Origin: Chloroflexota bacterium
Lineage (GTDB): Bacteria; Chloroflexota; UBA11872
Length of the DNA stretch: 64,000 nt
NCBI GenBank assembly: GCA_022825895.1
Contig: JAJDVX010000022.1
Coordinates: 62,001 to 126,000, forward strand
Direction of reading: 5' to 3'
The notes beneath the pieces were generated by a model that was given only the letters and a program-made list of their open reading frames with translations, was not told where the DNA came from and did no database searches. The position numbers and the translations under genes were made by a program. Position 1 is the first letter of the stretch, and each line of letters starts with the position of its first letter. Shown here piece after piece: positions 59,261 to 60,742 of this stretch.

Positions 59261-59264
59261 GGAG
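59261..59264 (+). promoter_or_regulatory. ribosome binding site of the selenoprotein candidate
   Basis: GGAG lies 5 bases before the ATG at 59270. It supports translation starting upstream of the in-frame UGA and not at the TTG at 59429. Confidence 0.6.
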
Positions 59265-59269
59265 CGCTT

Positions 59270-60742
59270 ATGGCGACGCAGACGCCGATTCCGGCGCCGG
59301 AGTTTCCGGATGGGTTGGAGTGGGCCAACACGCGGCGGCCGGTTCGCATGGCGGACCTGCAGGGCCGGCTGGTGATCCTGGACTTCTGGACGTTCTGCTG
59401 AATTAACTGCCTGCAGCTATTTCCGCAGTTGCGGAAACTCGAAGAGAAGCACGGTCCGGCGCTGGCGGCGGTGGGCGTGCACACGCCCAAGTTCCCGGCG
59501 GAGCGCGAGACCTTCAACGTGCGCTACGCGGCGCGGCGTCACCGGCTGGAACACCCGGTGGTGAACGACCGGGATTTCCAGATCTGGCAGACGTACGGGG
59601 TGCGGGCGTGGCCGACGATGGTGTTCGTGGACCCGCTGGGGCACGTGATCGGGTTCCATTCGGGCGAGGCGCCGTTCGAGGCGCTGGACCGGGCGGTAAC
59701 CCGCATCCTGAACGAGCACCGGCCGAACGGGGTGGTGACGGACGCGCCGCTGGACTTGATGGAGCGGGCGCCGGACTCGGAGACGGGCCTGGCGTTTCCG
59801 GGGAAGGTGCTGGCCACCGAGGACGCGCTGTATATCGCGGATTCGGGACATCACCGAATTATCGAGACGGACCATGACGGCGTGGTGCGGCGGGTGTTTG
59901 GGTCGTCGCAGGAAGGGCATCGGGACGGATCGGCTTCCGAGGCACGGTTTACGTATCCGCAGGGGCTGGCGGTGGTCGGCGACGACTTGTTCGTGGCGGA
60001 TACGGAGAACCACCGGATTCGCCGGATCGAGCTTGGGTCGGGCGAGGTGTCGACGGTGGCGGGGACTGGGGCGCGGGGGTATCCGGCGCCGGGATCGCAT
60101 CCGGCGCTGACGGCCGAACTGGCCTCGCCGTGGGACCTGGCCTGGCACGACGGGCGGCTGTTCATCGCGATGGCGGGGATGCACCAGGTCTGGGTGATGG
60201 ATCCGGCGGACGGAGTGCTCGGGCCGTATGCGGGGTCGGGGATCGAGAACCTGCAGGACGGGCCGCTGGACACCGCGCAACTGGCTCAGCCGAGCGGGCT
60301 GGCGGTGCATGGGGACCGGCTGCTGGTGGCGGATAGCGAGACGAGTGCGATTCGGACGCTGCCGCTGGACGGCCGGGGCGACGCGCGGACGATTGCGGGG
60401 GTTGGGCTGTTCGACTTCGGGGACGTGGACGGACAGGGCACGTCGATCCGGTTGCAGCATCCGCTGGGGGTGGCAGCAGGGACCGAGGGCGTGTTTATTG
60501 CCGACACCTACAACAACAAGATCAAGGTGGTGGATCCGGCGCGGCGGTTGATTACGTCATTTGCCGGCGATACGGAGCACGGCGATGCGGACGGCGGGCT
60601 GGCGGAGGCCAGATTTCATGAGCCGGGCGGGGTGTCGCTGGTGGACGGGATGCTCTTTGTGGCGGATACGAATAATCACGTGGTGCGGCGGGTGGATTTG
60701 GCTGCCCAGATCGTCAGCACGGTGGAGTTGAGCGGCCTTTAG
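59270..60742 (+). CDS. thioredoxin-NHL repeat protein (NHLRC2-like), probable selenoprotein
   Basis: Read through one in-frame UGA, this encodes 490 residues. The N-terminal thioredoxin fold has [16 protein letters not shown] (C43, U44, C47), [32 protein letters not shown] and the cis-Pro region [11 protein letters not shown]. The C-terminal ~330 residues form an NHL propeller ([36 protein letters not shown]). Cys relatives such as human NHLRC2 have CCINC here, so UGA replaces the first Cys of the CxxC. The frame is intact on both sides. A single-base nonsense change or sequencing error is the alternative. Confidence 0.8.
59399..59401 (+). other. in-frame UGA, predicted selenocysteine codon
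   Basis: Codon 44 of the thioredoxin-NHL gene is TGA. It sits exactly at the resolving-pair nucleophile of the CxxC motif (C-U-I-N-C), with open frame and conserved sequence before and after. Confidence 0.7.
59402..59437 (+). promoter_or_regulatory. candidate bacterial SECIS hairpin
   Basis: TTTCCGC (59420-59426) pairs perfectly with GCGGAAA (59431-59437) around the 4-base loop AGUU. The stem starts 18 bases after the UGA and the loop carries G-U, as in known bacterial SECIS hairpins, which lie inside the coding region just after UGA. The stem also encodes conserved residues, so it could in part be coincidental. Confidence 0.55.

Follow-up and report, generated by a model that had tools for sequence, protein, structure and literature searches.

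NHLRC2 has been described as an essential protein that is mutated in FINCA disease and whose function is unknown (PMC6107167, PMC10173003). Plant SOQ1 belongs to the same family, and both human NHLRC2 (6gc1) and the lumenal region of SOQ1 (7djj, 7djk) combine a thioredoxin-like domain with a six-bladed NHL propeller. Human NHLRC2 showed no insulin-reductase activity (PMC6107167), for SOQ1, redox activity has likewise been described as undetermined, and both the activity of the family and the redox role of its CCINC motif are regarded as open (PMC6107167, PMC10173003). A second group relevant here comprises the thioredoxin-fold selenoproteins with a UxxC motif, which include thioredoxin, Prx-like, thiol-disulfide isomerase-like, redoxin family, and UGC TlpA proteins (PMC13188914, Table 1). 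Like the protein analyzed below, they have a thioredoxin fold in which selenocysteine (Sec) occupies the first position of the redox motif or one close to it, and a bacterial SECIS element (bSECIS) lies downstream. However, judged by their descriptions, none of the 119 families in that compilation is listed with an NHL propeller or with a CCINC or CUINC motif.

The locus studied here lies on the forward strand of a 64,000-nucleotide stretch (the window) from the metagenome-assembled genome (MAG) of a Chloroflexota bacterium (G000; 3.54 Mb, 94% complete). A single frame runs from the ATG at 59270 to a TAG stop ending at 60742, and the TGA at 59399–59401 is its sole break. The likely Shine-Dalgarno sequence GGAG (59261–59264) ends five bases upstream of the ATG, as had been noted in the preliminary description together with the otherwise clean frame, and G-rich stretches precede the same ATG in the orthologues of the genus. 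Read through the TGA, the gene (59270–60742), delimited by sequence, homology, and a structural model, would encode a protein of 490 amino acids with selenocysteine at residue 44. Residues 39 to 47 would then read FWTFC-U-INC (C43-U44-I-N-C47).

Over its full length, the encoded protein is orthologous to human NHLRC2 and to SOQ1 of plants. In phmmer searches, it matched SOQ1 (E 1e-107) and human NHLRC2 (E 5e-102) over almost the full length. The thioredoxin-like domain (residues ~1–156; 59270–59737) was assigned from Pfam Thioredoxin_8 and AhpC-TSA matches, the alignment with human NHLRC2, and the model; it is marked by UxxC at 44–47, Trp-Pro at 114–115, and Asp100. It is followed by an NHL-repeat β-propeller (residues ~173–490; 59786–60739), supported by Pfam NHL matches and by model strands starting at residue 177. 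The AlphaFold2 model was of high confidence (pLDDT 93, pTM 0.91), and Foldseek aligned it with both 6gc1 and 7djk at a TM score of 0.93. Thus, the N-terminal thioredoxin-like domain and the six-bladed propeller typical of the family are both present, and the sequence identity to NHLRC2 and SOQ1 in the structural alignment is 38–39%. The CC(I/V)NC motif of the family is found at the same position as CUINC, with U44 aligned to the second cysteine of CCINC, which is the first cysteine of CxxC. This residue corresponds to human Cys90 (CCINC 89–93; PMC6107167), so that Cys90 or its equivalent in NHLRC2 and SOQ1 is replaced by Sec in the bacterial family; the alignment to both proteins thus agrees with the initial assignment of the TGA to this cysteine. 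Asp100 is invariant in a 16-sequence alignment and matches human Asp148, the residue affected in FINCA disease, the human number being an offset from CCINC 89–93.

Relative to the bacterial protein, NHLRC2 is extended by a C-terminal domain, and SOQ1 by a HAD part, a transmembrane part, and a C-terminal part (PMC6107167). By sequence, the nearest bacterial relative of known structure for the thioredoxin domain is the C-terminal domain of DipZ (2hyx, 5cyy; E ~6e-22), which differs in having cysteine at this site (SCINC, PMC6107167) and in lacking the NHL propeller. We also considered whether the neighboring genes point to a role, but the adjoining AAT acyltransferase-like, DUF6159, and SDR genes offered no obvious functional link; PMC6107167 reports an absence of conserved neighbors. 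Searches of phage records for the family returned weak partial matches only.

The assignment of U44 was based on this alignment and on conservation of the codon. In 61 genomes, comprising G000 and its relatives, all 24 full-length orthologues found carried TGA at the same site, and one of these came from a single-contig genome. Among 80 loci from named genomes, the column held exclusively cysteine codons (TGC in 55, TGT in 14) or TGA (11), while in a Sphaerobacter-like family TGA was present in all 18 readable copies. With presumed duplicates allowed for, TGA carriers amount to ~47 genomes. The TGA is a stop codon under the standard reading, and it could in principle be a nonsense mutation in a decaying gene or an assembly mistake. 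Recurrence of the same in-frame TGA among the orthologues, the named genomes, and the Sphaerobacter family leads us to reject assembly error or chance, as these are independent assemblies. Moreover, all close homologues have TGA, and the gene shows no other decay, its flanks being intact and under purifying selection. We therefore consider a pseudogene or sequencing error extremely improbable.

Downstream of this conserved codon, we found a canonical bSECIS element that the preliminary description had not mentioned. The apical hairpin (59420–59437), UUUCCGC-AGUU-GCGGAAA, has a 7-bp stem and a 4-nt AGUU loop with G in second position; the loop lies 25 nt after the UGA, and the predicted energy is −8.7 kcal/mol. 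All these values fall within the published bSECIS model, which specifies a loop of 3–9 nt, a stem of 4–16 bp, G in one of the first two loop positions, a spacing of 16–37 nt, and a minimum free energy of −7.5 or lower (PMC13188914). Hairpins of the bSECIS type with an energy of −7.5 kcal/mol or lower followed the codon in 31 of 35 TGA copies as compared to 2 of 69 cysteine copies (p ~2e-16, uncorrected for relatedness). Three stem pairs were changed on both sides in concert, and 97% of stem cells retained pairing versus 88% in shuffles. Across 14 divergent Sec orthologues, the codons were invariant in four consecutive columns only at CCG-CAG-TTG-CGG, which the stem spans. Part of the Sphaerobacter group has GCGTTGC in the loop region and a changed stem. 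Three copies (L043, L056, and L074) failed the strict single-helix test; their full folds showed a stem around the AGUU loop when a mismatch or bulge was allowed. The whole 47-nt stretch 3′ of the UGA was only slightly more stable than shuffled sequences (z −1.0), and the argument for the hairpin is therefore one of conservation and covariation.

The position of the hairpin also bears on whether the UGA is a true stop, with a short peptide made from the 5′ part and the NHL propeller translated separately. The longest standard ORF indeed begins at the TTG at 59429–59431, the start that a standard gene caller is expected to choose, as had been predicted. However, this TTG sits at the SECIS loop, and a product started there loses the active site together with the first strand. 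In addition, the CxxC motif and the 43 upstream codons are conserved as in the cysteine homologues. These 43 codons evolve as coding sequence under purifying selection, with a pooled pN/pS of 0.065 for codons 1–43 versus 0.135 downstream of the TGA. Separate translation from the TTG is thus a reading to which we give almost no weight.

Decoding of UGA as selenocysteine depends on dedicated machinery, and the search for it that had been called for recovered every component in G000: SelA (contig C25, 448 bits), SelB (C5, 338 bits), SelD (C33, 373 bits), and tRNA-Sec with anticodon TCA (C19, 71 bits). ARAGORN did not find tRNA-Sec at the selA and selB loci, and the gene is located on a separate contig. 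The catalytic loop of SelD itself contains an in-frame TGA (GAG-U-ACKL), and thus G000 has a second selenoprotein, which belongs to a known family. In the relatives set, SelB scored above the cut-off in 22 of the 24 genomes with TGA, and the two exceptions are MAGs of 83 and 77% completeness; among named genomes with TGA, it did so in all 11. It was also present in 11 of 15 cysteine-type genomes tested, and finding SelB is thus not diagnostic by itself.

Some bacteria have recoding tRNAs with a UCA anticodon, and UGA could thus be read as cysteine or another residue by such a non-Sec tRNA or through near-cognate read-through. Among the tRNA hits of G000, however, the sole UCA-anticodon tRNA was tRNA-Sec, while tRNA-Cys had the anticodon GCA and tRNA-Trp CCA. 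The covarying SECIS, which follows the UGA and not the cysteine codons, also speaks against this possibility, and we find it very unlikely. With a UGA, a bSECIS at the canonical distance, and the whole Sec machinery in place, decoding by SelB is expected, and SelB with Sec-tRNA-Sec would insert selenocysteine at 59399–59401. Together, the conservation of the UGA, the machinery, and the covarying bSECIS uphold the original proposal of a new selenoprotein. On sequence grounds this call is very secure, and the gene almost certainly encodes a bacterial selenoprotein orthologous to NHLRC2 and SOQ1.

We also considered how the Sec form may have arisen. In a 94-row tree, 23 of the 25 Sec rows fell into one clade of Chloroflexota and Thermomicrobiota (SH-aLRT 97), which also holds five cysteine rows, three from Ktedonobacter (L092, L102, and L105) and two from other Chloroflexota. 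The three Ktedonobacter genomes retain SelB, and their cysteine forms are likely to be Sec-to-Cys reversions. L092 and L105 contain CCCAGTTGCG, a remnant of the SECIS region. Apparently, two reversions to cysteine occurred within the clade, one in Ktedonobacter and one in the other pair, the direction of change being read from an unrooted tree. Sec would most likely have originated in an ancestor of this clade, with reversion to cysteine following later. Two Sec rows lie outside it. The planctomycete sequence (L116) has a different bSECIS, with a GGUC loop at 29 nt, and therefore probably represents an independent gain. The other (L096, bacterium Bin_57_9) has TGA at the same column (FWTFG-U-VNC) in a genome with SelB; no canonical bSECIS was found after its TGA, and its status is uncertain, an unusual SECIS, a recent mutation, or an error being conceivable.

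In-frame TGA codons were also observed in other thioredoxin-like genes. Three relatives (G033, G029, and G025) encode free-standing DipZ/TlpA-like thioredoxins with FWTYG-UGA-INC (L131, L132, and L133), and no full-length TGA-bearing thioredoxin-NHL gene was among the matches listed for these genomes. L131, the one searched against NCBIfam, matched no model above its cut-off. Thioredoxin-like genes with FWTYT-UGA-PVC (L135, and L134, which occurs twice, once on each strand) possibly represent another undescribed selenoprotein subfamily. The contig of the window also carries, outside it, a cysteine-containing DipZ-like thioredoxin with FWTFGCINC (L137; G000:C11:156614-157039). In the Sphaerobacter family, distant thioredoxin-like matches with one in-frame TGA were found on G089:C38, G090:C90, G091:C225, G064:C11, and G088:C487.

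We compared the family with described selenoproteins. None of the 119 prokaryotic families tabulated in the 2026 catalogue (PMC13188914) is entered as NHL or NHLRC2; its generic entries were compared by description, and a few of them could hide NHLRC2-type members. Open-licence full texts contained nothing relevant linking NHLRC2, NHL, or SOQ1 with selenium, and no NCBIfam model covers a Sec-containing NHLRC2/SOQ1-type family. The main texts of the GOS, 2016, and 2025 selenoproteome papers do not mention an NHL family. In PMC5330540, an "AhpC" UAG-Sec protein of Blastococcus is aligned with proteins from Sphaerobacter and Ktedonobacter, and it is possible that this is an earlier mention of an NHLRC2-like family.

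The position of Sec suggests a biochemical function for the protein, namely a Sec/Cys redox center facing the propeller cleft. The U44/C47 pair would lie where the first thioredoxin helix starts and would face the cleft formed with the NHL propeller. Given that Sec occupies the Cys90 position, and in view of the general chemistry of Sec (PMC13188914), we infer that U44 would be the attacking residue, nucleophilic or redox, with C47 as the resolving cysteine. The propeller would select the substrate, and the activity of the enzyme would be that of a two-electron selenol/thiol oxidoreductase specific to a particular partner, not that of a general disulfide reductase. By extension, we lean slightly toward the view that the presence of Sec singles out the Cys90-type residue of NHLRC2 and SOQ1 as their catalytic nucleophile, making them dedicated redox enzymes that act on a specific partner presented by the propeller and are silent in the insulin assay.

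These findings add a selenoprotein family, truncated by standard ORF calling, in Chloroflexota and Thermomicrobiota. That selenium is spent on one cysteine of CCINC, with cysteine as the sole alternative seen elsewhere, is strong natural evidence for chemistry at this site, and the position of Sec tells which cysteine of the motif performs it. If the proposed role is correct, the bacterial Sec versions would provide a high-activity member of the family for the identification of substrates. Some members of the Chloroflexota and Thermomicrobiota may be culturable.
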